A stretch of DNA of 24,810 bases from IMG/VR virus record IMGVR_UViG_3300013132_000247, positions 1 through 24,810 of that record. One strand, 5' to 3'. The stretch comes from a virus. Under the pieces are notes generated by a model. That model searched no databases, was not told the origin of the DNA, and saw only the letters and a program-made list of their open reading frames with translations. Position 1 is the first letter of the stretch; each line of letters starts with the position of its first letter. This document shows positions 7,481 through 24,029 of this stretch, piece after piece. A program made the translations under genes and the position numbers.

Positions 7481-10400
7481 ATGGCAAACGAACTTGGAGT
7501 GATCAACAATCCACCATACTTTGACGACTTTGATAGTAAAAAGAACTATTCCAAGATTTTATTTCGTCCAGGAAGGGCTATTCAGGCAAGAGAACTAACC
7601 CAAATCCAAACAACTCTACAGAATCAAATTGCTGCTCTTGGTAACAAATTACTACAGTCTCCAGTTGTTAGTGGTGGAGAACTACAAGTTGCAACCGTCA
7701 AATACTTGAGATTTTTGGATGTTTCTGTTGCTGGTACTGTTACAGATCCTGCATTTCTTAAGAATAAATTGCTACAGATAATTTCTGGAACAAATACATT
7801 TTCTGCGAAGATTTTGCATATACAAGATCCTGTTGATTATGAACTTTCAAGATATGTTTTGATGTTTGAACAAAAGAGCGGATCAAGTCTTGTTGATGTA
7901 ACTAGCATCAACACCGCTCCAACAGGAGATGGGATAAGTTCTTTCTCTGCCACTATCATAGACGAAGAATCTCTAGAACAATCAACTGCAACATTTAGAC
8001 TACAAGGACTTGGCTTGTTGACAGCAACAACAGGAGTTCCAATATACGGAGACGGGTTGCTTGCAAGAGTAAATTCTGGTATTTTCTTTAAGAATGGATA
8101 TTTCATTGTAAGCGATGTTCCTCTGTTTCTTGCTATTTCCACAAAGGCTTCAAGATATCAAGCAGGATTTTTCTATAGAAATTTCACTACAACAAGCCAA
8201 ATCGCAAAAATAGGAATAAAACTGTCCACAGAGTATGTGACCTTTGAATCCGATCCGAGTCTCTACGATCCATCAGCAGGATTCTATAATTTTGCTGCAC
8301 CTGGTGCAGATCGTCTAAAGTTATCTCCTTCTCTTGTATTCATAGATTCGGATAACACAGATACCGATATAATCGAAATTGCACAAATAAACAATGGAGA
8401 TGTAAAAGATCCCACTTCTTCTACATTTGTTCGTGGAGATTGCCGTGATCAGGTACTCCGACCATTTGTCATGGATATCATTGGCTCTACTCTCAATATT
8501 AGTGACGGTCGTGCGATTGTAAATTGTACAGATATCGAGATCATAGAAAATCAAAGAATTGCAATACCTGTAACTGATTCAAAAAAGCACATATTCAATC
8601 AAGCATTCAACAAACAATGTCTTTCCGATGCGATATTAGTTCAAGGATCTGTATCAACTCCCCTCTTCGGTGGGGCATCTGGTAGTAATTTCGGTGAAAT
8701 AAACACCAATTACTATGGTAGTGGTAAAATCAAAAAATTGTTCTCCGACGAAGCAGTTCGACTAGAAATAGTAAATTGCGATGGAATCAAAATAGGCTGT
8801 TTGACTGCTCTTGATTTCAGCAAAGAAGATGAAAATTCATATAGATTGTATTACAACGAATTGCAATCATATGTCTCTTCTATACCTGCTTCAAGCCTAT
8901 TTGCAGAATCTTGTACTTTATCTTTAGACGGAGAGACTGTATTCAGTATATACAGTCCAAATGTTTTAACCTGTGCTGATACAGTTCCAAATTCAAAACA
9001 AAGACTCGTCTATAAAATTAACCGTGGAACAAATACTATTGATGTAACAGATAACGACTATACGATCACTAGAGATTTTGTTGGAGATATTTCTGGAACA
9101 GAAATACAGTTCAACATGGATATCAGTGGAGGTGTTTTCAACGATAATAGCACAGGCGTTGGAAATCCCGATCTCTTTACTGTTGTGATAAACGGAAAAC
9201 AAGTACCAATAAACAGCAATACAACTCTTCCTTATATCGAAGTAGATGGAAGCAGAACAAAGGCAACAGTAAAACTTGGAGGAGATGGTTTGGTTTTCCC
9301 ATCGTTGGGAAGAGCCTATCTTGTTGCAAAAGTTCGTTTCCCAGAGAAAACAAACACAGCAGATATAACACCAGAACCACATAGAAAGAAAATTCTCAAA
9401 GAAGCCAAGGGTGTTTATCTTCAAAATCTTTCAACAAATCCAACAGTAAGTTTAGGATTTTCTGATGTATATAAAATAGTATCAGTGAGTGTTGGTACTA
9501 GTTCCCTTACTCTTGATAATTTTGTTTTTGATGATGGTCAAAGAAACGACAGATATGATCACGCAACAATAACACTAGACCCAACTACTACATCTATTCC
9601 AACAAGCGATACAGAGATAACAGTAACATTCAGATACTTTGAACATCAACCAATATCTTCTGGATTTTATGGACCAATCACGGTCAACTCTTATGGATTT
9701 GACCAAAATGGTGCAGAAATATCAGGATTTCATGGACTAGACTTGAATGGAAATCAACTAACTCTTTCTTACGATGAAATACCAAATTTCGTTGACAGAA
9801 TAAGTGGAGAAGTGATCTCTCTATCTGATGCTATAGATTACAGAATGTTCAGAACAGAAGAAGGATATGTGGAAGACGGACTAAACAAGTCTTCAATTTT
9901 ACGGGGTCGTTGGTTCCCATCGCCTGATGAAACCGCAGCAGTTGAAGCAGCATATATTTTCAATATGCCACGCATAGATCTTCTGACTATGAGACAAGAT
10001 GGAGTGATAAAGATTCTCGCTGGGGATCCATCAGAAAATCCTGTTCCTCCAGAATATCCTAAAGATGGCTGTGTTCTTGCTGAAATAAAGGTTCCAGGAA
10101 TAATCACTTCATCGGAAGACTACATTATACAAAAAACTCCAATAAAGTCTATTTCAATATCAGAAATGAATGATATTCAAAATAGACTGGCAGAAGTGGA
10201 GAAAAGCCTTTCTTTGAAAACTCTAGAAAATAAAGCAAGAGCATATAGTGCTTCTCTCAATAATGAATTCTTAACAGGTATGGTTGTTGATGACTTTGGT
10301 GGTCACTATGTTGGTGATATAGCAAACGACGAATACAATTGCTCTATGGATTTTTCAAATGGAACACTCCAACCACCATTTAGCACAACATTCTATGATT

Positions 10401-12589
10401 TTGTACCACAAGGAAGTTATCCGACATCAGAAGAAATAATTGCAAGAGATTATTATATCATGTCACTAGAGAACACAAACGGTGTTGCTCTTGTATCAAA
10501 CGAACAGGCAACATCCGAAGTTCTAGTCAATTCTTTTGGTTCTGTTGATTGGCACGGCTATCTTGTTCTTGATAGACCAGGAAATATGTGGTTAGACCAA
10601 ACAACTAAACCTGTTGTCAGAAATAATCCAAGAGGACAAAACGACTCATGGGAAGCAGGAGGATCTGCTGTTCAAACAAATGGAAGAAACAAAGGATTTG
10701 GAACTCAATGGGGATTCTGGAGAAGTCTTTGGTTTGGTGACAAAATACTGGCAGATTCTTCAACAGAAAAAGATCGTGCATCGGCTAAAGGTCTTTCAGA
10801 CGCTGTTGCTTCTGCCGCTCCTTCTAGATTTCCAAGAAGTGTGATTAAAGACAGTCTTTTCGCTCCACAGAGAAGAACAGTAGGTTCTGGTGCTTTCTCG
10901 CACACAGATGATAAGACTAGCAGATATGTGGATATGTCTCTCAATTTCTTTAGCCCCAAAAATTACATTATAGTACGAGGATATGATCTTAAACCAAATT
11001 CAGAATTTGATGTTTACTTTGATAATGTGACCACTCCTGTTGCTTCTTCACGAATTCTATCTGTTAGCACTAGTTCCGTCTCTACAGTTTTATCTTCTAT
11101 TACGACAGATTCAAATGGATTTGTTGAATTTATACTCGCCATTCCTGCCGGAACTTATCTGACAGGAAACAAAACAGTCAAACTCATAGAGAAAAATGTA
11201 ATTTCGAATCCTTCATATGCTACTGCAATATACGAGAATATAGGAAGCGATTGGAAGAATAGAGCAAATGGAGATGATAATTCTGTTGAATTAGAGAAGG
11301 CTCCAATAGGAAGATCTGATCTTTTCATTAAGAATGAAAATACTCAGTATTTGGACATAACTTCTAATAATAGTCTTGTTCAAACCTTCTCTGTTGATTC
11401 TGGTGATTATCCTGAAGGACTTATACTACAAAAAATCAGACTCTATATCGCAGATAAGGATGATTCTCTTCCTCTAACAATAGAGATTAGAAAATTAGAG
11501 AATGGAGTTGTTGATAAATTCAACATAATAAAGAATTCAAGAATCACAGTAAATTCTTCTCTATTGAATGTAGAATCGGATAACGATATAGTCTTTAGAT
11601 CTCCTGTTTATCTTGCAGCAGGACAATATGCACTAGTAGTCAAAACAAATTCAAAGAACTATAAAGTACAAATTTCTCAAAATGGATTTGGTAGAATTGA
11701 TGAAAATACAGGTGGTTCAACAAATCTGTATGCAACCACAAAAGAGGGTATGCTTGCCTACTATTCTAGTGGAATAGTTTCAAGCGGGGGAGATTCTTCG
11801 ACAACTTTGAGATTCTCTCTTTTCAGAAGATCATTCCAAACGAATACAGATAACACAAAAAGAGCCTCTGTTAGAGGATTGACATCAACAACAACAATGA
11901 AAGATCTTGTAGCATCTTCAAGTTCTCACGATTATCTGTACTTTTCTAATAATAACTCACAACTAACAACAGGATCAGTTGATCTCCAATTTGGAGGAGA
12001 AAATATTGCCGCAAATACTGATATAAAGTTTAGCGGTACTATCGCACCAAATCAAAATCCACTATTAACTGTTACTGTTTCGACAACAAGAGAAGAAATA
12101 TCACCAATAGTTGATATAAGAAAGTTAGGAATGCTTTCTATTAAGAACAATCTTTCTTCTATAACAAAAGCAATCAATGGACAAAATATCCTTGAGTATG
12201 AAAAGAAGAGTTTTGCTGGTTCGGACGGCTCTTCCATGAAATATATTACAAGAAGAACAGATCTTGATCTGCCTGCCAATCTTATTAGAGCGTCTTTTGA
12301 AGTAAAACTTCCAAATTCTGTTTCTATTAGAGCATACGGCAAAGTTCTTTATGAAGGAGACACAGATTTCGACAATGAACCATATTCAGAAATGGTGCTT
12401 GTATTTGGAAATACTGATTCTTCTAAACAAGAATTCAAAGAATTAGTCTATGAATATGATGCTACTTCTAATCCTAAAAATTTCATATCATTCTCTGTGA
12501 AAATTGTTCTCTTTGCTCCAACAGAAAATTCTTCATTGGAAGAAATACCAATGATCCGTAATCTAACAATCGTATCTACGGTGAGATAA
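7481..12589 (+). CDS. Giant virion structural protein with DUF4815-type N-terminus (1702 aa)
   Basis: The N-terminus has the DUF4815 hallmark ILFRPGRAIQARELTQIQT at 26-44, found in large phage tail proteins. Other family features follow in order. About 894-922 is a helical, coiled-coil-like segment (MNDIQNRLAEVEKSL) followed by FLTGMVVDDFGGHYVGD. About 1036-1085 has a Trp-rich stretch (WLDQTTKPVV, then GFGTQWGFWRSLWFG). About 1289-1385 has LVQTFSVDSGDYPEGLI, DDSLPLTIEIR and PVYLAAGQYALVVKT. In related phages this protein is a major baseplate or tail-periphery component, probably a platform for fibres; the exact role is inferred. GAGG at 7471-7474 serves the ATG. The stop overlaps the next start (TAATG at 12587-12591). 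No internal break is visible over 5.1 kb. Confidence 0.88.
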   Translation: MANELGVINNPPYFDDFDSKKNYSKILFRPGRAIQARELTQIQTTLQNQIAALGNKLLQSPVVSGGELQVATVKYLRFLDVSVAGTVTDPAFLKNKLLQIISGTNTFSAKILHIQDPVDYELSRYVLMFEQKSGSSLVDVTSINTAPTGDGISSFSATIIDEESLEQSTATFRLQGLGLLTATTGVPIYGDGLLARVNSGIFFKNGYFIVSDVPLFLAISTKASRYQAGFFYRNFTTTSQIAKIGIKLSTEYVTFESDPSLYDPSAGFYNFAAPGADRLKLSPSLVFIDSDNTDTDIIEIAQINNGDVKDPTSSTFVRGDCRDQVLRPFVMDIIGSTLNISDGRAIVNCTDIEIIENQRIAIPVTDSKKHIFNQAFNKQCLSDAILVQGSVSTPLFGGASGSNFGEINTNYYGSGKIKKLFSDEAVRLEIVNCDGIKIGCLTALDFSKEDENSYRLYYNELQSYVSSIPASSLFAESCTLSLDGETVFSIYSPNVLTCADTVPNSKQRLVYKINRGTNTIDVTDNDYTITRDFVGDISGTEIQFNMDISGGVFNDNSTGVGNPDLFTVVINGKQVPINSNTTLPYIEVDGSRTKATVKLGGDGLVFPSLGRAYLVAKVRFPEKTNTADITPEPHRKKILKEAKGVYLQNLSTNPTVSLGFSDVYKIVSVSVGTSSLTLDNFVFDDGQRNDRYDHATITLDPTTTSIPTSDTEITVTFRYFEHQPISSGFYGPITVNSYGFDQNGAEISGFHGLDLNGNQLTLSYDEIPNFVDRISGEVISLSDAIDYRMFRTEEGYVEDGLNKSSILRGRWFPSPDETAAVEAAYIFNMPRIDLLTMRQDGVIKILAGDPSENPVPPEYPKDGCVLAEIKVPGIITSSEDYIIQKTPIKSISISEMNDIQNRLAEVEKSLSLKTLENKARAYSASLNNEFLTGMVVDDFGGHYVGDIANDEYNCSMDFSNGTLQPPFSTTFYDFVPQGSYPTSEEIIARDYYIMSLENTNGVALVSNEQATSEVLVNSFGSVDWHGYLVLDRPGNMWLDQTTKPVVRNNPRGQNDSWEAGGSAVQTNGRNKGFGTQWGFWRSLWFGDKILADSSTEKDRASAKGLSDAVASAAPSRFPRSVIKDSLFAPQRRTVGSGAFSHTDDKTSRYVDMSLNFFSPKNYIIVRGYDLKPNSEFDVYFDNVTTPVASSRILSVSTSSVSTVLSSITTDSNGFVEFILAIPAGTYLTGNKTVKLIEKNVISNPSYATAIYENIGSDWKNRANGDDNSVELEKAPIGRSDLFIKNENTQYLDITSNNSLVQTFSVDSGDYPEGLILQKIRLYIADKDDSLPLTIEIRKLENGVVDKFNIIKNSRITVNSSLLNVESDNDIVFRSPVYLAAGQYALVVKTNSKNYKVQISQNGFGRIDENTGGSTNLYATTKEGMLAYYSSGIVSSGGDSSTTLRFSLFRRSFQTNTDNTKRASVRGLTSTTTMKDLVASSSSHDYLYFSNNNSQLTTGSVDLQFGGENIAANTDIKFSGTIAPNQNPLLTVTVSTTREEISPIVDIRKLGMLSIKNNLSSITKAINGQNILEYEKKSFAGSDGSSMKYITRRTDLDLPANLIRASFEVKLPNSVSIRAYGKVLYEGDTDFDNEPYSEMVLVFGNTDSSKQEFKELVYEYDATSNPKNFISFSVKIVLFAPTENSSLEEIPMIRNLTIVSTVR
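7876..7919. repeat. Nested inverted repeats inside the DUF4815 gene
   Basis: TGTTGATG at 7891-7898 pairs perfectly with CATCAACA at 7906-7913 around a 7-nt loop. Immediately outside, CCGCTC at 7914-7919 pairs with GAGCGG at 7876-7881, leaving a 9-nt left-hand bulge. Together this is 14 bp in one structure, fully inside coding sequence and without a T-run. Confidence 0.5.
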
Positions 12590-12771
12590 TGAACACAGAA
12601 AGAGTTTTCATAAACAAAGACAAAACACTCTACTCCGAGTTCATAAAAAACAAGAAAAAAGAGAATACTCTAAATATTCGCATAGATAAGATAGAATCTG
12701 CAATTCAACAACTTTCATTACAGATATCTGCAATTGAAGAAAAAATTAGCAGAATCGGAGAAAATAAATGA
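12589..12771 (+). CDS. 60-aa protein with an Ile-rich heptad coiled coil, possible fibre-linker
   Basis: The gene overlaps both neighbours (TAATG at 12587-12591, ATGA at 12768-12771), which supports it as real despite its size. The first 27 residues are polar and Lys-rich. From L28 on, hydrophobic residues follow a strict 3-4 spacing: L28, I32, I35, I39, L42, I46, I49, I53, I56. That gives just over four heptads with mostly Ile at both core positions. In model coiled coils, Ile at both a and d favours parallel trimers, the symmetry of phage fibres. Its place between the 1702-aa structural protein and the tail fibre suggests a trimeric connector or fibre chaperone. This is inference, and no named family is recognised. 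Confidence 0.8.
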   Translation: MNTERVFINKDKTLYSEFIKNKKKENTLNIRIDKIESAIQQLSLQISAIEEKISRIGENK

Positions 12772-15700
12772 GTACAAGCCCACACTCACCCATTTCAACT
12801 ATTACCTACAGTGATACTTTTGCTACTCTTTATAATAGAGTAAATGAAGTAATTACAGTAGTAAATCAGATTAAAATGTATGATGTGTCCACCGAAGGTG
12901 GTTTGCTCCATATAAGACAAATAGGAACGCCAACCGAAGTACTTTCATTAAATCTTGGAAAGACCGGACCAGGCAATGATTATGGTTATGGATTGAAATT
13001 GATTGGTCTTGGCGAGGCACAACATTCTCAAACCATAGGAGTAAATGAATTATCAGAATATGAAGGGAAAGACGAGGCACTTTCTATAGACATACAAGGT
13101 TTAGAATCTGCTGAAACAACAGTTGCAGCATCCACCGACACAACTGCCTATGTTGGAGACAGCGATTATGTTTTATTCTCTCCCAATACATCAACAGATA
13201 GAGGAGATGGAGTAGGAAGACCACTAAAAGTAGCGGCATCTGATAGCATCCCCTACACAATAAATGGAAATCATCGTTTTACAGGAGATGTTGTCTTTGA
13301 TTCAGAGAGACTAGCAATCAGCACAAACTCTTTTTTTACCGATGCCGAGATCATTTACATTGCAAGCGATGAAACTTATGATTATGCAGCGGAATCAATT
13401 GAGGGATCGGATCCAACAGCAGATAGAAATTCTGCTGCACTTGTTGGATCTGGAATTGTTATCAAAGCAACAGATGGGGATAAACACATAAAATTTGTTT
13501 TGGGTTCTACTGCTACATCATTGAGCAACAACGCTTATGTTTTCGAATCATCAGAGAATTTCAAAACTAAAGGTTCTTATATTAGTGATGTTGGTGGATT
13601 TAAGTTTGTTGCAATAAACAATACCGCACCATATATCTCTCTGAGAACAAAAAATCAAGATACAGGTATTACCGGTGGTATTCCAACAGGTTGGAAGATT
13701 TATCAGTCTGTTACTGGGGCTGCTGCTGGAACTCTGAAATTTATCAGAGAAGGCTTAAACGATACCGACGCACTTCAACTTTTCTCTAATGCAGAAGTTA
13801 AGATAGGAACTATTCATATTGGTTCAACAGGAAATGGAAGTTTTAAGACTCTTGCATCAAATTATGCAGTTCCTGCTGTAGCAAATAAAGGAGTTCTTGA
13901 TTATAGTTGGCAAAATAGAGATACAATAGAAATATCGTCAAGTGCTGCTGGAGGAATGTTTGCAGAATCTCTACTCTCATATCTCAATGGAACAGTTCTT
14001 GCATTCAACAGTAATGGAAAGTATATTAAAGCCCAATGGAATGCGGATCCAGATACAGGATACAAAGATGCAGAAGTTGTTGGTATTCTAGAAAAGAAGA
14101 TTTCTGATTATGTTCTCACAATACCGGGAATAACAAGATCTTCTCCTGATCCTTCTCCAGTTAACGGATACAGTTATACACAAAATGAACCCGTTTCTAT
14201 TAAAAATTCTTCAACTACTATAAATGGATACATCTATAATAGAAGCACATCAAGCGTTGATGTGTATGTCGATGAATTTCCAACAGGAATAACAGCAGGA
14301 TCTCTTACAGGTAGTGCACCTTTCTTCACAGGTGGTGCTACTCTCTATGGTAGTTTTGGCGATTATGCTATGGGAATCTGCGGTACTAACGGAATCACAG
14401 TATCTCAAAAAGATTTTGCAGTAATCGTCAGACAAGGGCTGTTTGATATTCCCGAAACAGGATCATCTGCCGCAACAGGATATGCAGCAATAACTGGTCT
14501 AACTGCTGGTTATGTCATGTATCTCTACTCTAACGGTGGAGTGACATATGCAACAGATAACGAATTCAATAGTCAAGATTTTTATCAAGCAAATGCAACC
14601 GTAGGAAAGCCACTTTTTGTCTATCTTGGACTTATAGACGGAAAGCGTGTAGGAATGTTCAATCATTACCAAGGACTAGGCTTGACTCAAGCGGTTCTCG
14701 ACTCTGATTCGGAACCTGTTTACTATAGTCCAGATACGGACGAATTGACTAATTTTGATCTTCTTGGAGAAGTTGGCGGTAAGAACAAGATTATCAACTC
14801 TGGATTTGATATATGGAATCGTCTTGATACTATGGGAGGAACATATTTTGGGACAGAAGGCTCAACATATAGCGGGATAACATTCAATATAACACAGCGT
14901 TCTGCCTATCCATATGGAGCAACATATTCTGCTGTAGATTCTACAGGTTTGATAAAATCATCTTATATTGCCGATGGATATTTTATTGATACTTATACCG
15001 GAAGAGTTTTAGGTGCAATAAAACAACCAATATCAAGTTATACAGGATTAGATCAACTCTCATCTCCTCCTGAAAATGAATTAGTATTGAGAAATCCATC
15101 TGCGTCTCCGACTTCTACAAAAACTAGGCTGTATGCAATAGTACCAAATCATAGAAATCTACAAGAGAGCCAGTTGAATTTGTCTTTCTTTGGAAAAGCA
15201 TCTGCGACAACTGGAATAACAGTAGGTCTTGCTTATGTATATTCTTCAGGATCAACTTATGCTGTGATCGAATCCTATCACACTTCACTTGCTAGTGGTT
15301 ACGGTGTATCAGGAGGAACTTTCTACGGAGCAACTCTAGGAACATCGTATCAAAGATTTAACTTCCCGTTCTCTTCTATTCCTCTAAATCTAAACCAAAC
15401 AGCAAATAAGAATTCATTTGTTGCACCTTTCATTGAAATAGGAACAATAGGTGCTGGATCAAATGCAACAATATCAACTACTGGATGGCAACTCAGTAAA
15501 GGAATGAGCGTAAAACCATACGAAAAGAGAACTTATGGACAAGAAAAGGGAGACTGTGATCGTTTCTTTCAAAATATAGTTCTTGCACATGGTGGGTACT
15601 TCCCTGTTTCGACTGGAACAAGTGGTCCAAGTCTCTTTACTGCAACTAATTTTCCAGTTCCTTTTGCAAATACACCTCTTGTTGTTGGAGCAGTCGATGT

Positions 15701-15887
15701 TCTATTGAGAGGAATTTGTGGTGGTTCGACTTATGATGCAACAACTGTGAGAAAGAATTCGTTGTCTGTTTTCCGATCAACAAATCCTTCTTCTACAACA
15801 TATCATAGATATTTCGAAACAGTTTATGCAATAGATGCTTCAGGCTTTTCTGGTACATTAAATACACGCTTACTTGGAATGACCTGA
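12768..15887 (+). CDS. Tail fibre protein with NGxFxxW-type C-terminal domain (1039 aa)
   Basis: The N-terminus includes the helical element FATLYNRVNEVITVVNQIK, typical of virion-attachment ends of fibres in this phage group. Residues about 399-627 are a beta module (NGTVLAFNSNGKYIKAQ, then AGYVMYLYSNGG) that also appears in the following gene. Near 670, GGKNKIINSGFDIWNR begins a C-terminal region of the 'iiNgdFdvWqR' kind common in phage tail fibres. It ends with the partner motif PYEKRTYGQEKGDCDRFFQN, as in carbohydrate-binding-like receptor domains. The protein probably forms a trimeric host-binding fibre. GGAG at 12757-12760 and the ATGA overlap support the start. No cleavage or chaperone domain is obvious. 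Confidence 0.85.
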   Translation: MSTSPHSPISTITYSDTFATLYNRVNEVITVVNQIKMYDVSTEGGLLHIRQIGTPTEVLSLNLGKTGPGNDYGYGLKLIGLGEAQHSQTIGVNELSEYEGKDEALSIDIQGLESAETTVAASTDTTAYVGDSDYVLFSPNTSTDRGDGVGRPLKVAASDSIPYTINGNHRFTGDVVFDSERLAISTNSFFTDAEIIYIASDETYDYAAESIEGSDPTADRNSAALVGSGIVIKATDGDKHIKFVLGSTATSLSNNAYVFESSENFKTKGSYISDVGGFKFVAINNTAPYISLRTKNQDTGITGGIPTGWKIYQSVTGAAAGTLKFIREGLNDTDALQLFSNAEVKIGTIHIGSTGNGSFKTLASNYAVPAVANKGVLDYSWQNRDTIEISSSAAGGMFAESLLSYLNGTVLAFNSNGKYIKAQWNADPDTGYKDAEVVGILEKKISDYVLTIPGITRSSPDPSPVNGYSYTQNEPVSIKNSSTTINGYIYNRSTSSVDVYVDEFPTGITAGSLTGSAPFFTGGATLYGSFGDYAMGICGTNGITVSQKDFAVIVRQGLFDIPETGSSAATGYAAITGLTAGYVMYLYSNGGVTYATDNEFNSQDFYQANATVGKPLFVYLGLIDGKRVGMFNHYQGLGLTQAVLDSDSEPVYYSPDTDELTNFDLLGEVGGKNKIINSGFDIWNRLDTMGGTYFGTEGSTYSGITFNITQRSAYPYGATYSAVDSTGLIKSSYIADGYFIDTYTGRVLGAIKQPISSYTGLDQLSSPPENELVLRNPSASPTSTKTRLYAIVPNHRNLQESQLNLSFFGKASATTGITVGLAYVYSSGSTYAVIESYHTSLASGYGVSGGTFYGATLGTSYQRFNFPFSSIPLNLNQTANKNSFVAPFIEIGTIGAGSNATISTTGWQLSKGMSVKPYEKRTYGQEKGDCDRFFQNIVLAHGGYFPVSTGTSGPSLFTATNFPVPFANTPLVVGAVDVLLRGICGGSTYDATTVRKNSLSVFRSTNPSSTTYHRYFETVYAIDASGFSGTLNTRLLGMT

Positions 15888-15899
15888 TAGGAGAAACAG

Positions 15900-17540
15900 A
15901 TGACCACTACAAGAGTATTTGGCAATAATCCATTTGAAGTCTATCTCAAACCCACAAACAAGATACAGATAAAAGTATCTGGTTCTGGTTTGTCTAAAGG
16001 AGATGTTGTTGCATACAACACTAGCGGTCAATTAGTAAAAGCAAATGCATCAAGTAGAGTTCTTTCTTCTGTTGTTGGAATAGTGATAAGCGTTACTTCT
16101 AATACTGTCACTATTGTAACTCAAGGTGCTATTACAGATGCAGATTTAGGTTCAACTGTAACTTCCGCTCTTCCCGCTGGAAATGCTGGAACAGTTTATT
16201 TTCTAAGTGATAGTCAATCTGGAAAGATGACAGATACTCCACCTGTTGCTCTTGGCACAACAAGAATAGCCGTTTTACAAAAAATACAAGATGGTTGGAT
16301 TGTTCTCGGTACTCCAGGTATCGTCAATGGAATATCGTATCGTGGTTATGTAAATATTGCTGCAATACAACCTATCGGTACTGTTGCTCCTTTTGTTGGC
16401 AGTGAGGACTCTCTGCCGAAAAATTGGTTATTGTGCGACGGATCTTATGTTAGTATTGATACTTATCCTGAACTCTATAGATTATTAGGTTCGATCTATG
16501 GTCCAGTGACAGATGGAAGATTTAAGTTGCCAGATTTCCGTGGAAGAACACTAGTTGGTGCAGGATCTGGAAGTTCTCTAACAACAAGATTCATAGGAGA
16601 ACTGGGAGGAGAAGAAAAGCACCAACTATCTCTCGCAGAAATGCCTGCACACAATCACAAACCAGCAATAGGCACAAACGATGGTGTTGACTTCTGGTGG
16701 GGAAGTGATGATCGTGTCGGATCTCCTAATTTTGATTACGATGGAAGTGCTGCAACAAAACCTTCGGATGGATTTATTGCACCTTCATATAAAACAAATA
16801 CTGTTGGTGGTAATTCTCCACACAACAATATGCCTCCATATTCTGTTGCAAACTGGATAATAAGAGCAAAAGCAGAATCAGAATTTGCTCTATTAGATGT
16901 AAATGTCGAAAGTCTCACCAATGTTGAAAAGGGTATCACCTCTTCTAATGGTGATACAATCAGATATGACGGATCTTCTTGGAGATTTGTACAAGATAAA
17001 ATCACAAATAGTAAAGATATTGATATACCCACTGATGTTTCTGTCGGCGGTGTTGTCTCTGTGGTCAGTGTTTCGGATGGTGTTCCATCATTCACTATTT
17101 CAAATCCAACAGGAACTAACATCTTTATACCAGCAAGTCTTCCTGCATCTCATACAAATGGATCACCAAGACCAGCATCAACAATAGTGACTCTTGGTTC
17201 CACTACAGATTATCCTCTTGGAAGAAAAGGACTTGTTCATATTCATGGTACTTTAGAAATAGAGCCAACAAATGGTTCTGCTGATGGAACTGTAAATATG
17301 AATTTTGTTGGCTATAGCGGAAGCGGAGGTATTGATGTCTTTGATACAATCACTTTACCCCATTATGTCAAGGGTGATATAAAGAAAATGAAGATACCTG
17401 TTCATGTTACTGTTGGAACTCAGATATATCAATCTGGTTCGAATTCTGTATTCAAATACTCATATTACCTATCGACATCTACAGGATCTCAATTCAAAGC
17501 AAATAAACTAACAATAGATAATGTAAAGTTCGTCTTCTGA
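15900..17540 (+). CDS. Tail collar domain protein, gp12-like short tail fibre (546 aa)
   Basis: Residues about 159-325 are a phage tail collar domain as in T4 gp12: LLCDGSYVSIDTYPELYRLLG, then GRFKLPDFRGRTLVGAG, then MPAHNHKP and HNNMPPYSVANWIIRAK. The HNH near 250 matches where short-tail-fibre collar domains carry metal-binding histidines. Before it, residues about 20-155 form a beta module (LSKGDVVAYNTSGQLVKA, then AGTVYFLSDSQSGK) shared with the upstream fibre. After it, about 330-360 has a fibre repeat of the DVN..L...GDTIRYDGSSWRF kind. Residues 375-546 are a further beta-rich domain not present in T4 gp12. AGGAG at 15889-15893 supports the start. Likely a receptor-binding or baseplate fibre protein. 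Confidence 0.9.
   Translation: MTTTRVFGNNPFEVYLKPTNKIQIKVSGSGLSKGDVVAYNTSGQLVKANASSRVLSSVVGIVISVTSNTVTIVTQGAITDADLGSTVTSALPAGNAGTVYFLSDSQSGKMTDTPPVALGTTRIAVLQKIQDGWIVLGTPGIVNGISYRGYVNIAAIQPIGTVAPFVGSEDSLPKNWLLCDGSYVSIDTYPELYRLLGSIYGPVTDGRFKLPDFRGRTLVGAGSGSSLTTRFIGELGGEEKHQLSLAEMPAHNHKPAIGTNDGVDFWWGSDDRVGSPNFDYDGSAATKPSDGFIAPSYKTNTVGGNSPHNNMPPYSVANWIIRAKAESEFALLDVNVESLTNVEKGITSSNGDTIRYDGSSWRFVQDKITNSKDIDIPTDVSVGGVVSVVSVSDGVPSFTISNPTGTNIFIPASLPASHTNGSPRPASTIVTLGSTTDYPLGRKGLVHIHGTLEIEPTNGSADGTVNMNFVGYSGSGGIDVFDTITLPHYVKGDIKKMKIPVHVTVGTQIYQSGSNSVFKYSYYLSTSTGSQFKANKLTIDNVKFVF
16933..16957. repeat. 8-bp perfect inverted repeat in the collar gene
   Basis: GTATCACC at 16933-16940 and GGTGATAC at 16950-16957 are exact reverse complements around a 9-nt loop, within the region encoding the post-collar fibre repeat. 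No T-run follows. It may be chance. Confidence 0.4.
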
Positions 17541-17553
17541 AATCGGAGATTCC

Positions 17554-20500
17554 ATGTCTTATACCGCTGGCTTCAACTTTGATGTGTCTAATCTTGATAG
17601 CAACTTTTATAAAAAGTTGTCTACAGGAACTCCTATCTCTGATCCATATAAGACAATAACACTTTCTGGTAGTGCAGCAAATTTACAAATACAAGAACAT
17701 CTTAATAGCCTAAATGATCTGTTTATTGATGATTCGGTTAGAGTTGTTCTAAAATTTGGTGCAATAGAAGGCTCTACTAATGATGCAAGAGTAAACCCAA
17801 CATATTATCAATTCTCAAATCCTGTTCTTATTGATCATGCTGTTGCAGACAAACTTGTCATAGAGGGAGTTGCACCAAGCGACCACTCGGTTATTGGTGT
17901 TTCATATTATGATGCAGCCAATAAGGGATTGTTGAATGGATCTGGTGAAACATATTCAGGAGCAACAGCGGCCTCTCAAAATGGTTATTTTGCTCAATTG
18001 ATAATCACAAACGGAAATAGCCTTAAGATAGGTGAGTATCTTGCAGTATATGATAATCGCTATCAAAAGTATCTCAATCCATCATTTTATAAATTTACAG
18101 ATTCGGTAAATGGTAGAATATTTTCTACACCATATCCAGTAACAGCAGAAAAGTTAAGAGCATCTCTTATCAATGGTGTTCATAAAATCGTGGATAAAAT
18201 TGATCTTGAGGCAAGCGGTGTTACAGGAGCAACTGTAAATCCAGAAACAAAGGTCGATTATGTTACAGTTCATATTAACAACTACAATCCAACCTATACC
18301 ATAGGGTTACAGTCTTATGGTATTACATTCGCAAGAAGAGCCTATCTAACACCACAAGGAATTATTGGAAGATACGAACAAGGTTACGGATCTAGCACAG
18401 TTCTTGAAGATCCTCTTTTCTTTTCGGGCTTGACATCAGGAACAACGGGTGATGATAGTGCAATACCAGGTTATCGCTCCTCTACTGATTACAAATATGG
18501 AGTTGGTGGAAGTATAGATGGAACTAAATTTTTGTCTAATGTTTTATCTGGTTCTTCTGCGATAAACGCAAATCAACAAGGCTTGACATCTTACTATGTT
18601 GTTGAATCTACAGCATATACAGTTGGTGCAGAATGGGAAAGATATGAAAGACTATACGATTCCACTGCTCTTAACCCTGCTCAAAATTATCGTGACTCAA
18701 ATGATTTCCGTGCAAAGGGATTCAAGACGATTATAGAATGCACATCTGATGGATTTGTTATAGCAAACGCAAATAAAGCACCAGAGATAAAGAACATTCT
18801 GATTCTCTCTAAAAATGGTTCTGGAAACGGAATCAGAGTAGATAACAGTTCTTCTGTAAATATAAGACAGATTGCTGTTGTTGGCTTTACGGCGGGTGCT
18901 GGCATATTTGCAAATAATAAATCAACAGTAAATATACTTGCAGACAAATTCTCTGATCCAGAAGTCTTCCGTGAAGTAGGAGCATTTTCTTGTTGTAACT
19001 ATACAGGATTTGAAGCAAGAAATCACTCCAATATTAATTCACCACGCTCCATTGCAACTGGCAATAGATTTGCTAATTACTACGCTGCGGAAAATTCGTA
19101 TATAAATGCATATGCGGTTAATTCTATTTCATCACATAAGCATGGAATAGTCTCTGTTGGAAAGAGTTTCATCAATGCCGATTCTGCTTTCTCTTGTTTT
19201 AATGCTTCAGATGGATTCTTTTCATCAAATGGAAGTCTGTTGACGATTAATTCTGGAAGAGCGTGTTACAACTACGGCAATGGAGTTCATGCATTTTCTT
19301 CGGGAGAAGTAAGAGCATTCGATATTATTGTTTCATCCAACAAAAAAGATGGAATAGTTGCAAATGATATGTCAACGATTATATGTGGAGATTCTTCTAA
19401 AGAACCTGTAGATTGGGATACAAAATATGGATACTCTCTCGAAAGTCCATACTATAGATTTGAAAATCCAACCAATGTTTCTCAATCTCGTTTCAATGGT
19501 ATAGCAGGGTTAGCAGCATCGACCGATTCTTTCGTAAATGCTTCATTTTTTGAAACTCATAACAATTCTAGACTAGGTGGCGAGTGGGGTAAACTTCGTG
19601 ATGTCAATTGCATATACAATCCTCTCATAGGATATTGTTTTGGTGGAGCATCTGGTAGTTCGGCTGGAATGACTTGCGATGCAGGATATCGTTATTGCGA
19701 TGATGCCGTATACACTGAATCTATTTCCTCGGCTACAGATTTGTCATCATTGAATGCGCTTCTCAATGATAAAACTCCCACAAATAGTCCATCATATTGT
19801 ATTCCCTATACAGATTCCCGTGGAGTGACCGCACAGGTTCCTGTGTCCAAGAGTCGCTATCTGGGTGTAGTAGGCAAAGTAGAAACAATAGTAAAGAGTG
19901 TTTTGGGAAATAGTGGCGGTATCACTATGGGAAGAATTCTTGCTTGCAAAGGATATCTTCCAGGATGTCTTGTTATAGGTCAAGGCTATTCCGCTGATTC
20001 TGGAACGGGTGTTCCTGGTGGAGCATTCGGTGGAGGATCCGAAGTAGTACCCTCTGGATATGGAGTTTGTAGTTCAGAAAATGATGTGAGTGAAATAATA
20101 CTAGGTTCGACAGGAACAGCGATACAATCATTTGCTATTGCTAATGAGATTCTTGCTTGCACTGCTGATACAAGTACTCTTCTGCTAAACACTGTTTGTG
20201 TTTCCCAAGATGGAGCATTTCTTACTCCACCACGACCACTTGCTCTAGTTATTCCAAATTATGATGTAGAAATACGGGACTCTTCGAAGATTGCTCTTGC
20301 CGGTAGAATAGCAAACTTTGGTTATTATGATATAAGAACCGGTGTTAGAATACAGCCCTTCTATGGTCAAGATTTATCACAAACCATTCTTCGTCCCGCT
20401 ACACTAGTTGGATATGCTGGAAATAGAAATGGAAGTGAACTAGTTATCACCGATCAAACAACAGCGGAGACAGGAATATTAGGAGATCAAGGAATTGCGG

Positions 20501-20766
20501 CAAGAGATACTCTTAGAGCAATTAGATATTCTTCAGAGGACTTCTTGTCTGCTGCTGATCTATATGATCCTGTCGCTCAAACTGGCTATATCAACACAGA
20601 ACCATACAAACTAGATCTTGGAAAGATTGATCCAGAAACTGGCGCATTGACGAGTGCTATAGGAATCACTGCTTCTTCTATTCTCTTTGAGAACACGGCA
20701 AGTGTTCCACAAGCATCTCAAGGAACAAACGATTCAACATCTGGAAACGGTTATCCTACATATTGA
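17554..20766 (+). CDS. Giant beta-helix virion protein A, paralogue of the next gene (1070 aa)
   Basis: Residues 98-122 (LVIEGVAPSDHSVIGVSYYD) and the following GYFAQLIITNGNSLKIGEYLAVYD align with the N-terminal part of the next protein. The shared part resumes at FRAKGFKTII (about 385) and continues as a Gly/Asn/Ser-rich array of short strands from about 429 to 680 (SSSVNIRQIAVVGF, NKSTVNILAD, FSCCNYTGFEARNHSNIN), typical of a right-handed parallel beta-helix. Residues about 690-1070 are a separate C-terminal region, Cys-containing at first, absent from the paralogue. Such proteins usually serve as tail spikes, fibres or appendage plates. No hydrolase residues can be assigned. GGAG at 17545-17548 fits the ATG. 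Confidence 0.85.
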   Translation: MSYTAGFNFDVSNLDSNFYKKLSTGTPISDPYKTITLSGSAANLQIQEHLNSLNDLFIDDSVRVVLKFGAIEGSTNDARVNPTYYQFSNPVLIDHAVADKLVIEGVAPSDHSVIGVSYYDAANKGLLNGSGETYSGATAASQNGYFAQLIITNGNSLKIGEYLAVYDNRYQKYLNPSFYKFTDSVNGRIFSTPYPVTAEKLRASLINGVHKIVDKIDLEASGVTGATVNPETKVDYVTVHINNYNPTYTIGLQSYGITFARRAYLTPQGIIGRYEQGYGSSTVLEDPLFFSGLTSGTTGDDSAIPGYRSSTDYKYGVGGSIDGTKFLSNVLSGSSAINANQQGLTSYYVVESTAYTVGAEWERYERLYDSTALNPAQNYRDSNDFRAKGFKTIIECTSDGFVIANANKAPEIKNILILSKNGSGNGIRVDNSSSVNIRQIAVVGFTAGAGIFANNKSTVNILADKFSDPEVFREVGAFSCCNYTGFEARNHSNINSPRSIATGNRFANYYAAENSYINAYAVNSISSHKHGIVSVGKSFINADSAFSCFNASDGFFSSNGSLLTINSGRACYNYGNGVHAFSSGEVRAFDIIVSSNKKDGIVANDMSTIICGDSSKEPVDWDTKYGYSLESPYYRFENPTNVSQSRFNGIAGLAASTDSFVNASFFETHNNSRLGGEWGKLRDVNCIYNPLIGYCFGGASGSSAGMTCDAGYRYCDDAVYTESISSATDLSSLNALLNDKTPTNSPSYCIPYTDSRGVTAQVPVSKSRYLGVVGKVETIVKSVLGNSGGITMGRILACKGYLPGCLVIGQGYSADSGTGVPGGAFGGGSEVVPSGYGVCSSENDVSEIILGSTGTAIQSFAIANEILACTADTSTLLLNTVCVSQDGAFLTPPRPLALVIPNYDVEIRDSSKIALAGRIANFGYYDIRTGVRIQPFYGQDLSQTILRPATLVGYAGNRNGSELVITDQTTAETGILGDQGIAARDTLRAIRYSSEDFLSAADLYDPVAQTGYINTEPYKLDLGKIDPETGALTSAIGITASSILFENTASVPQASQGTNDSTSGNGYPTY

Positions 20767-20780
20767 CACGGGAGTGAAAA

Positions 20781-23700
20781 ATGCCTAATAATCTTCAGTT
20801 TCTAGATGATCCAGATGATACACCATTCATCAACGAAAACATCACTCTTCATGTTGGAGTAGATGGAAGCGATGAATTCAATAGTGGACTAGAAGATTCT
20901 CCATTTCGTACACTTGGAAAAGCGGTAGATGTTGTTCGCAATAAAATGATTGGGAAAAACAATCTCGTCACAATACAAATTGGTTCAATAAAAAACGATA
21001 GAACAGGAAAAGAATCAAAGAAGTATTTTGAAGAAGAAGATATTGTCATTGATTTTGAGATGGCAAAAAGACTCAAAATAAAAGGAATACAACCAACCGA
21101 TCACGAAATAATAGGAGTTAGTTACTTCGATAAAGCAACAGACAGAGAGGGTTACTATTGCCAGGTATTGGTCACAAATCAAGACAAGATAAACATTGGA
21201 GATTATCTTGGAATATATGACCATATGTGCGCAAAAAAGAAAGATCCATCTTATTTCTGGGTCACAAACAACATAGGTTCTCCCGCAACACGCTTTATTA
21301 CTACAAACAATTGCTATGTTGAAGCAATTCGTGTTGACATGATTCTTGGAACACATGAAGTTGTCGATGTTAGTGAAACAATAAGAACTGCAATCCCAAC
21401 AGAACTATTTGATGCAGAAGGTCTTCAGATAGGAACTGTTACTCTGCATATAAAGAACAACAATCACACATATAAGAGACTAAACCAAATTCCATATTAT
21501 AATACTCTTGGAACAGAGTTTGGTAAGCCACTTCAGTATTATGCCGCTGGTGCAGGAAACTCTCCTCAACAGGGTCAAGGAAACGGTATTATACCTCCTG
21601 TGTTTTATGGGGCAGATATGCTTTCTCATCCAGAAACACTAGAAACAAATGGATATGAGCAATTCTATTATGCAAGCGGTGTACAACAAATAGAAATTGT
21701 AGACATAATGGTTCGTGGATACGGCTTTAGTCTACAACCACTAGATGGTAAAATCGTTGATCCCCGTGATCAGACTATTGCAAAAGATGCAAGTATTCTT
21801 TGGAATGATCCAACTCTTACAAAATATTTCAGAGTCATAGTTGCAAACAGAATTGCGACTTATTTCTATAAGAAAATGATATCAGATTTGCGATTAGACA
21901 ATGATCTTGCATTCTACTTTTCAAAGTCTACTAATCCGTTTATTACTGTTGAATCTATAGTAAATGCGGCAAAGAAAATTCGTGACTATCTTATTAGTGG
22001 TGCAAATAATCTTGTAGGTGTTCCTCCTTGGGATGAGAATAATCATCCAGGATATGGATTTGGTCCATTTCAAAGTGGAGCAATCAGAACACCACTCAGT
22101 GGTGGAGCCGAAATAGATCGTGGATCATATCCATCTGAATATGCAGATGAAAGTAAAACCTCTGTTCTTTTGCAATCTTACAATATTTATCCTCCAATAA
22201 ATGGTCAACTGTATGTTCCAACAATGGTAAAGAGAATAAGTCGTTGGTACAATGACAATACATCTCTCAATGGATTGCAATTAGATCGTTGGAATAATAT
22301 TGGCAACTTGAGTCCGTTCTTTTGTGGATATATCACTCCACAGGGTTGGTACAAGCAAAGATGGGTTACAAATCCCCAAGGAACAACAGGCAACGATATA
22401 GGAACACTCAATATTCTTCAAAAAGAAGGAATTAGTGCTTCTGATGGTGTAGAATACGGATATTATGAATTATTCGGTGGAAAGACACCAAATTACTGTG
22501 GAAACTCTTTTACCAATTTTAACGGAGTCTCTGGTAGATCTGTTGGCGTATTTTCAAATGAAAGATCAGCAACAAAAAACTACAGTCTCGTTGAAGCAAA
22601 CTCTTTCAATTTCGAATTAGATGGTGCAACAAATGACGCTTGGATAGGATCTAGCGGAAACACTTCTGCCTATGCCAATCGTGGATCAATGGGAAGTATT
22701 TGGTATTCGGGACTAGTCAATAATTTTCGTGTTGGTGGATTGGGAAGCGATAGATCAATTTCAGCAATTGGTGATTTTGTGATGGATCGTTATTTCTTTG
22801 GCTATGAAACAGGAAAAACACCATCTGCATATGACGCAATACAAGACAGAAATCAAATTCTACCAATACCGACTACAAATTCAAATATACATCGCTCTTC
22901 ACAAACAATTTCACCTAGAGCAAAATGTTTCAAATCTGTGTTGAGATTTGGCAAAAATGGTTTGTGTGTTAAATCAAAAACAAAACTAGGTCTAATCAAA
23001 GATCTTTGTATTGTTGGTCTTGGAGATACTTCAAAAAAGAAGACATACGGTATTCTTGTAGACCAAGAATCGGTTGCAAATATCACTAATGTTGCTGTAT
23101 CTGGATTCTATTGCGGAATAGGAGCAAAGAATCAGTCGATAGTCAATCTTCTTGCGGATCTTGGAAGTTCTACGAATCTTTTTTCTAAAGTAGATCCTGC
23201 TGCAATTGTCACTTGTTGCAATATAGGAATAGAAAGCAGCATCAAGTCCCATGTCAATGCAAGAAGAAGTATAAGCACTGGTTCTAAACTTGCGAATTAT
23301 CTTGCTGTTGCGAATTCTTCAATGGATTGCTCAAATACTGTTTCTACTGCTTCATTCAAGCACGGTTATGTTTGTGAATTCAATTCTTATATGAAAGCAA
23401 CTAATGCTTTTGCCGAATTAAATGGAGGTGTTGGATTCTGTGCATCGAATAATAGTATACTTGTCTGTCATCGTGGCCGATCTCTTTGGAATGGTCAAGA
23501 AGGAATATTAGCACAGAATAAGGGAACCGTAAAATGCTTTGAATTTATCTGTAGAGGAAATGATGCAGATGGAATGCTGGCAAAGAACAAATCAGTCATA
23601 TCAGCGGGTGCAAATTCAAGTACATTCTCTAACTATAGGCGTGAATTTGTTCGAGAAACAGAAGGTGTAGGAGCAAATCTCACCACAGCCTACTATGGAA

Positions 23701-24029
23701 TAGAAACTTCTTTACCTCCACATATGTTCATCGTTGTTGTACAGCCTTATGATAGTCTACAGGAACAAGGATCATTCTTACCCACGCCTGTTGTTGCGAT
23801 CAATAGTAATCCAACACATGGACTTACTCCTCTGTATCACGAATGTAGTCACACTATTTCAGAATTCAATGCTGGTTCTGGATTTGCAGCAGATACAGAT
23901 TCGACAATTATTGCAGATAATACCATCGCCAGATTCAACAGCAAAAAATATGGAGAGTTTTTCTTGTATGGGTGGTCTGGAACTAGAGGATCTTTTCCAA
24001 CAGATACATTTGCATCAGGAGGTCATTGA
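20781..24029 (+). CDS. Giant beta-helix virion protein B, paralogue of the previous gene (1082 aa)
   Basis: The N-terminus reads ITLHVGVDGSDEFNSGLEDSPFRTLGKAV, matching the 'VdGsDsn.G..ssPfrTi..A' cap that begins many extracellular and phage beta-helices (DUF1565-like). About 95-150 aligns with protein A (LKIKGIQPTDHEIIGVSYFD; INIGDYLGIYDH). From PRAKCFKSVL (about 712) it again matches A through the helix, including VTCCNIGIESSIKSHVNA near 807 and the KHGYV segment. Between these blocks lies about 480 residues against about 140 in A. That insertion is rich in Trp, Tyr and Pro and holds its own helical segment. The protein ends about 30 residues after the helix. GGGAG at 20770-20774 supports the start. 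Probably a virion surface adhesin or spike; no enzyme activity is claimed. Confidence 0.86.
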   Translation: MPNNLQFLDDPDDTPFINENITLHVGVDGSDEFNSGLEDSPFRTLGKAVDVVRNKMIGKNNLVTIQIGSIKNDRTGKESKKYFEEEDIVIDFEMAKRLKIKGIQPTDHEIIGVSYFDKATDREGYYCQVLVTNQDKINIGDYLGIYDHMCAKKKDPSYFWVTNNIGSPATRFITTNNCYVEAIRVDMILGTHEVVDVSETIRTAIPTELFDAEGLQIGTVTLHIKNNNHTYKRLNQIPYYNTLGTEFGKPLQYYAAGAGNSPQQGQGNGIIPPVFYGADMLSHPETLETNGYEQFYYASGVQQIEIVDIMVRGYGFSLQPLDGKIVDPRDQTIAKDASILWNDPTLTKYFRVIVANRIATYFYKKMISDLRLDNDLAFYFSKSTNPFITVESIVNAAKKIRDYLISGANNLVGVPPWDENNHPGYGFGPFQSGAIRTPLSGGAEIDRGSYPSEYADESKTSVLLQSYNIYPPINGQLYVPTMVKRISRWYNDNTSLNGLQLDRWNNIGNLSPFFCGYITPQGWYKQRWVTNPQGTTGNDIGTLNILQKEGISASDGVEYGYYELFGGKTPNYCGNSFTNFNGVSGRSVGVFSNERSATKNYSLVEANSFNFELDGATNDAWIGSSGNTSAYANRGSMGSIWYSGLVNNFRVGGLGSDRSISAIGDFVMDRYFFGYETGKTPSAYDAIQDRNQILPIPTTNSNIHRSSQTISPRAKCFKSVLRFGKNGLCVKSKTKLGLIKDLCIVGLGDTSKKKTYGILVDQESVANITNVAVSGFYCGIGAKNQSIVNLLADLGSSTNLFSKVDPAAIVTCCNIGIESSIKSHVNARRSISTGSKLANYLAVANSSMDCSNTVSTASFKHGYVCEFNSYMKATNAFAELNGGVGFCASNNSILVCHRGRSLWNGQEGILAQNKGTVKCFEFICRGNDADGMLAKNKSVISAGANSSTFSNYRREFVRETEGVGANLTTAYYGIETSLPPHMFIVVVQPYDSLQEQGSFLPTPVVAINSNPTHGLTPLYHECSHTISEFNAGSGFAADTDSTIIADNTIARFNSKKYGEFFLYGWSGTRGSFPTDTFASGGH
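24017..24022 (+). promoter_or_regulatory. Strong ribosome binding site AGGAGG for the last gene
   Basis: A full AGGAGG lies 6 nt before ATG 24029, inside the end of the preceding gene. It decides the start of the truncated final gene, whose ATG overlaps the upstream stop as TGATG. It is the best Shine-Dalgarno match among the starts in the window. Confidence 0.8.

Follow-up and report, generated by a model that had tools for sequence, protein, structure and literature searches.

Are the two very large genes that stand in tandem towards the end of this viral fragment copies of one gene and, if so, how did they come by different modules and what does each copy do? The window (the whole 24,810-nucleotide stretch analysed) is a 24.8-kb viral fragment with a T4-like (Kyanoviridae-like) baseplate operon encoding gp25-like, gp6-like and gp8-like proteins, a further wedge protein and a 1702-aa VrlC-like protein. 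The fibre locus that follows contains the two genes, A and B, and is laid out as listed here.

7481–12589, + strand: VrlC-like (DUF4815) baseplate protein, 1702 aa, which opens the fibre locus (phrog_358, E 4e-152; VrlC/DUF4815-annotated records matched)
12768–15887: fibre, 1039 aa, between the VrlC-like and collar genes
15900–17540, + strand: collar/short-tail-fibre-like protein, 546 aa, directly upstream of A (Pfam Collar, E 2.7e-16; PHROG tail proteins)
17554–20766, + strand: gene A (ORF), 1070 aa, beta-helix tail-fibre/spike-like protein
17698–18300, + strand: A residues 49–249, N-terminal block common to A and B (hhalign E 1.9e-22, blastp 6e-22)
18301–18687, + strand: A residues 250–378, short spacer with a TPQG motif that is also present in the B spacer
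18688–19587, + strand: A residues 379–678, shared beta-helix of 23-residue coils, the best-conserved part of A
19588–20763, + strand: A residues 679–1070, C-terminal module with no equivalent in B and weak similarity to gene C
20781–24029, + strand: gene B (ORF), 1082 aa, paralogue of A
20919–21476, + strand: B residues 47–232, N-terminal block common to A and B, preceded by a tail-protein entry motif (PF.TL..A)
21477–22889, + strand: B residues 233–703, long middle module for which no homologue was found
22890–23960, + strand: B residues 704–1060, shared beta-helix
24029–24808, + strand: gene C, cut by the window end, its start overlapping the stop of B (TGATG)

Gene C encodes 528–562 aa where it is complete in relatives. 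There the order fibre-collar-A-B-C leads on to a small gene, gp13/gp14-type connector genes, the gp15 sheath stabiliser and the terminase gene. The T4 order, with gp25-gp6-gp8 of the baseplate ahead of the genes for neck, sheath stabiliser and terminase, is borne out by PHROG matches in the window and in one related contig (L009). Pelagimyophages and cyanomyophages have their host recognition cluster in the stretch from VrlC to the neck genes; it is hypervariable there and averages 34–45 kb (PMC7029224). The A-B locus sits at the equivalent place but spans ~13.5 kb and keeps a constant gene order. psbA was not found in the related contigs, which are fragments, and the sequences neither demonstrate nor exclude a cyanobacterial host. 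Late-promoter-like TATAAATA sites occur at chance frequency only.

Three further observations concern the surrounding genes. A short stretch of the fibre (about residues 402–446) looks homologous to collar residues 28–67 (score 31.1, second of 653 between-family piece comparisons). A 5.7-kb contig (L053, IMGVR_UViG_3300013131_001162) matches the window almost exactly over gp6, the wedge gene after it and gp8, where the alignment is broken once around residue 200, and probably represents the window's phage population in another sample. In contig L007 (21582–23968) a homing endonuclease frame of GIY-YIG-like type (phrog_314, E 8.9e-11) splits the large terminase gene; the next frame opens with intein-like sequence and then continues the terminase.

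Judged by their two collinear homologous blocks, A and B are paralogues beyond reasonable doubt. The N-terminal blocks align at E 1.9e-22 in profile–profile comparison and at 28% identity by BLASTP (A 64–248 with B 63–231, E 6e-22); the helix blocks align at E 1.8e-38 and at 35% identity (A 386–637 with B 713–975, E 2e-35). A versus B was the only strong pair when profiles of all families of the window were compared. The initial annotation had described tandem paralogues, and the two are indeed real genes of the lengths it gave, with 14 nt between the stop of A and the start of B. It was right that an N-terminal block is shared, although the block is longer than the residues 98–150 it had marked. 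The helix block, which it put at 250–300 residues, is ~300 aa long in A and longer, 357 aa, in B, where it ends 22 aa before the terminus. Its measure of the differing modules was accurate: A has ~129 aa of spacer between its blocks and B ~471 aa, a difference of ~340, and 392 aa follow the helix in A (some 390 had been claimed as extra) against 22 aa in B. The spacers share the TPQG motif, and A 250–378 shows weak profile similarity to B 500–705 (E 0.002, 0/150 column shuffles), a signal too weak for homology to be called.

A coil period of 23 residues, within the range of about 20–25 expected of beta-helix phage tailspikes and fibres, was detected in A 420–620 and in B 750–945, reached by none of 500 column shuffles in either case, and was not found in the N-terminal block, the A C-terminal module or the B middle module. 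Nine coils can be paired between the proteins, including an irregular coil of 35/37 residues, and the alignment runs coil for coil in register; they differ substantially at one point only, ahead of the last coil, where the loop of B exceeds that of A by ~50 residues. The shared-helix profile matched one solved protein below E 0.01, the receptor-binding protein Andhra gp15 (PDB 8EGR; residues 344–473, E 2.8e-4). The match extends over 130 residues, its compositional bias term amounts to 14.8 bits, and generic beta-helix coils may account for it. Pfam Beta_helix reached only E 0.023, and AlphaFold models of the two proteins from eight-sequence alignments (pLDDT 30 and 33) were too low in confidence for use. 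Coil period and profile match together support the reading of these blocks as beta-helices, as the initial annotation had proposed from the sequence.

Repetitive proteins of this kind could resemble each other by convergence of two unrelated beta-helices, and a generic G...N...S coil pattern does occur in both A and B. Such convergence is extremely improbable here, and we reject it: the non-repetitive N-terminal block is likewise homologous and collinear, coil lengths and irregular insertions agree nearly one for one, and the helix alignment scores 308 in register versus 27 at best off-register. Because the N-terminal block is aperiodic and still reaches E 1.9e-22, the coils are in register and A/B is the sole strong pair in the window, the similarity is not a low-complexity effect.

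Searches of Pfam, PHROGs and NCBIfam gave no match of the window's A or B to named families, and no polysaccharide lyase or hydrolase domain or other enzyme family was among their Pfam and NCBIfam hits. Residues 18–67 of the B orthologue in contig L006 matched a tail protein family (phrog_4577, E 1e-6).

Both genes are complete in seven IMG/VR contigs, two of them near-identical, which leaves six distinct contigs, all with the same order; three further fragments carry only one of the two. A orthologues are 63–69% identical to A in 7 other distinct contigs (one truncated), and B orthologues, complete in 6 other distinct contigs, are 56–61% identical to B. Architecture is constant, and in all contigs spanning the region the helix is present in exactly two copies. 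The near-equal total length remarked on in the initial annotation holds in all orthologues (A 1057–1082 aa, B 1063–1094 aa), a regularity to which we assign no cause. In trees of both blocks A and B are reciprocally monophyletic with 100/100 support, so the duplication predates the clade. On these trees the two architectures are evidently old and fixed within the clade, with no sign of later exchange or gene conversion, and no domain replacement was seen among the orthologues.

Beyond this clade, neither protein had a closer separate relative in 50,697 phage records, in IMG/VR or in bacterial and archaeal genome contigs; the IMG/VR and genome-contig scans were pattern-based and best suited to close relatives, and more distant ones may exist. 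Searching phages with tblastn at E 10 returned only weak coil-like matches, the shared helix had no relative in the bacterial and archaeal contigs, and HMMs found no relative of A or B among 89 loci, some of them from distant T4-like phages. Because no outgroup was found beyond the clade, module gain cannot be distinguished from loss. The proposal that the genes were duplicated in tandem and later gained or lost modules is supported, paralogy being certain and the genes adjacent in all six distinct contigs that carry both complete. Its stronger wording, a swapping of modules, is not shown: no donor is established for the A C-terminal or the B middle module. Within the window, hhalign against all families gave the similarity of the A C-terminal module to C as the only lead, and none for the B middle module.

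Tandem paralogous fibres at this locus have a precedent, because the Pelagibacter phage HTVC008M (Kyanoviridae) has four. Its gp59, gp62, gp63 and gp64, in the same VrlC-to-neck locus as A/B, are large, mutually homologous neighbours (up to 65% identity over 524 aa) that differ in length and module order. HTVC008M thus has four copies where there are two here, the modules of A/B are not seen in it, and its fibre genes have no sequence similarity to A/B. Andhra gp15, the beta-helix appendage protein matched by the A/B profile, is a trimer with a 534-residue beta-helix domain that forms the 12 tail appendages of its phage and relies on an N-terminal loop and coiled coil of its own for attachment (PMC9710869). 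This 609-aa protein of a short-tailed Staphylococcus phage has neither the A/B N-terminal block nor the extra modules. The T4 fibritin C-terminal module was swapped in an ancient event and then fixed (PMC3797505), the same tempo of old module change and later fixation as in A/B. Unlike T4 fibritin, A and B exceed 1000 aa and are of beta-helix type, and they matched no fibritin family in Pfam or PHROG. In T4 the fibritin gene (wac) lies between those for gp12 and gp13.

Mean pairwise identity, calculated over 5–8 contigs per family with a contig set that varies by family, was 68.6% in A, with lower values in the collar protein (65.4%), gp6 (65.2%), gp8 (62.5%), the VrlC-like protein (60.7%), B (59.6%), the fibre (57.8%) and C (52.4%), which places A among the best-conserved proteins of the operon (ten families compared). 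Within A, mean identity peaked at 81.6% in the shared helix and stood at 57.0% in the C-terminal module. Sequence varies most at A 321–360, A 721–860 and B 521–720, patches that are possible contact sites. As read from these alignments, the pattern is that of conserved structural parts rather than of a fast-evolving pair of receptor-binding proteins.

We consider it likely that A and B are structural tail-fibre or adhesin proteins of a T4-like myovirus, derived from one duplicated ancestral gene and since then turned into distinct permanent parts. The ancestor would have been a single gene encoding an attachment-type N-terminal block and, after it, a beta-helix shaft or spike. Tandem duplication before the radiation of the clade would have yielded two copies that diverged into different permanent parts and not spares, A with a cysteine-rich C-terminal module past the helix and B with a large module between attachment block and helix. 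By analogy with trimeric beta-helix phage proteins, A and B would each most likely make up a separate oligomeric spike or fibre on the baseplate, with both needed. Synteny points to the virion location; the oligomeric state, the attachment role of the N-terminal block and contact with the host surface are likewise presumed.

The two proteins might instead be stacked in one hetero-oligomeric appendage whose differing modules are two halves of a single structure. They are always found together, adjacent and of similar size, and their N-terminal block and number of helix coils are the same. Their helices differ at ~65% of positions, though, and solved beta-helix tailspikes are mostly homotrimers, and we regard a joint appendage as unlikely. 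We are no more inclined to the two receptor specificities suggested in the initial annotation, by which A and B would recognise different host receptors as a dual-specificity set. The locus corresponds to the host-recognition locus of related phages, the variable patches are where contacts might lie, and phages with multiple tailspikes exist, TaPaz being an example (PMC8228797). Against this, A tops the ten families compared, with 82% identity in its helix. Receptor-binding tips usually show the lowest conservation, and here the fibre and C are more variable than A and no orthologue has a replaced domain. The high conservation of A, above all of its helix, argues against frequent receptor swapping, and a dual-specificity pair is improbable.

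A further alternative concerns only the origin of the modules and is compatible with the preferred reading of A and B as diverged permanent parts. Here B and C together would be the split counterpart of A: an ancestor with N-terminal block, helix and C-terminal domain would have been copied in tandem, the copy divided into two overlapping genes, B and C, and the middle module added to B. A 881–1070 versus C 376–551 was the top of the 653 between-family piece comparisons (score 31.3; mean 13.6, sd 2.8), and none of 200 column shuffles scored as high. The two ends have in common the pattern P-x-[YF]...E-x-R-[DN]-S-x-K-I...[AS]-G...FG...RI, and a second motif, CD-x-x-[YF]-x-x-CD, lies collinearly upstream of this region in both. 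The invariant cysteines, 10 in the A module and 6 in C, are all upstream of the similar region, and in the window the start of C overlaps the stop of B as TGATG. Weighing on the other side, HMMER scores for A/C are marginal (3.5–5.5 bits versus a shuffled maximum of 8.5), the hhalign probability is only 38%, the fibre–collar pair scores almost as high, and short gene overlaps are common in the operon. We place the split origin of B and C slightly below an even chance. The same tentative weight, just short of balance, applies to homology of the A C-terminal module with C and hence to a three-part spike that is present twice, as one chain in A and as two chains, with B enlarged, in B and C.

The 10 cysteines of the A module (A 686–882, window 19609–20199) are invariant in all complete orthologues, and several of them sit where the surrounding sequence varies. 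For a fibre, a module so rich in cysteines seems unusual, and it could bind metal.

Taken as a whole, A and B are a well-supported and fairly ordinary case of modular tail-fibre evolution, an event of a known kind; what is new is the protein families and the fixed pair. Three families (A, B and C) that are unnamed in Pfam, PHROGs and NCBIfam are added. If the link between A and C is true, the 'extra' module of A was never lost from the second copy and became the separate gene C; the locus would then offer a test case for the splitting and fusion of phage fibre genes and a natural comparison of a fused with a split tail-fibre system within one virion. In these uncultured T4-like phages a tail-fibre duplication stands frozen, its two copies conserved along with their differing modules, at a locus whose counterpart in the best-studied relatives is hypervariable.
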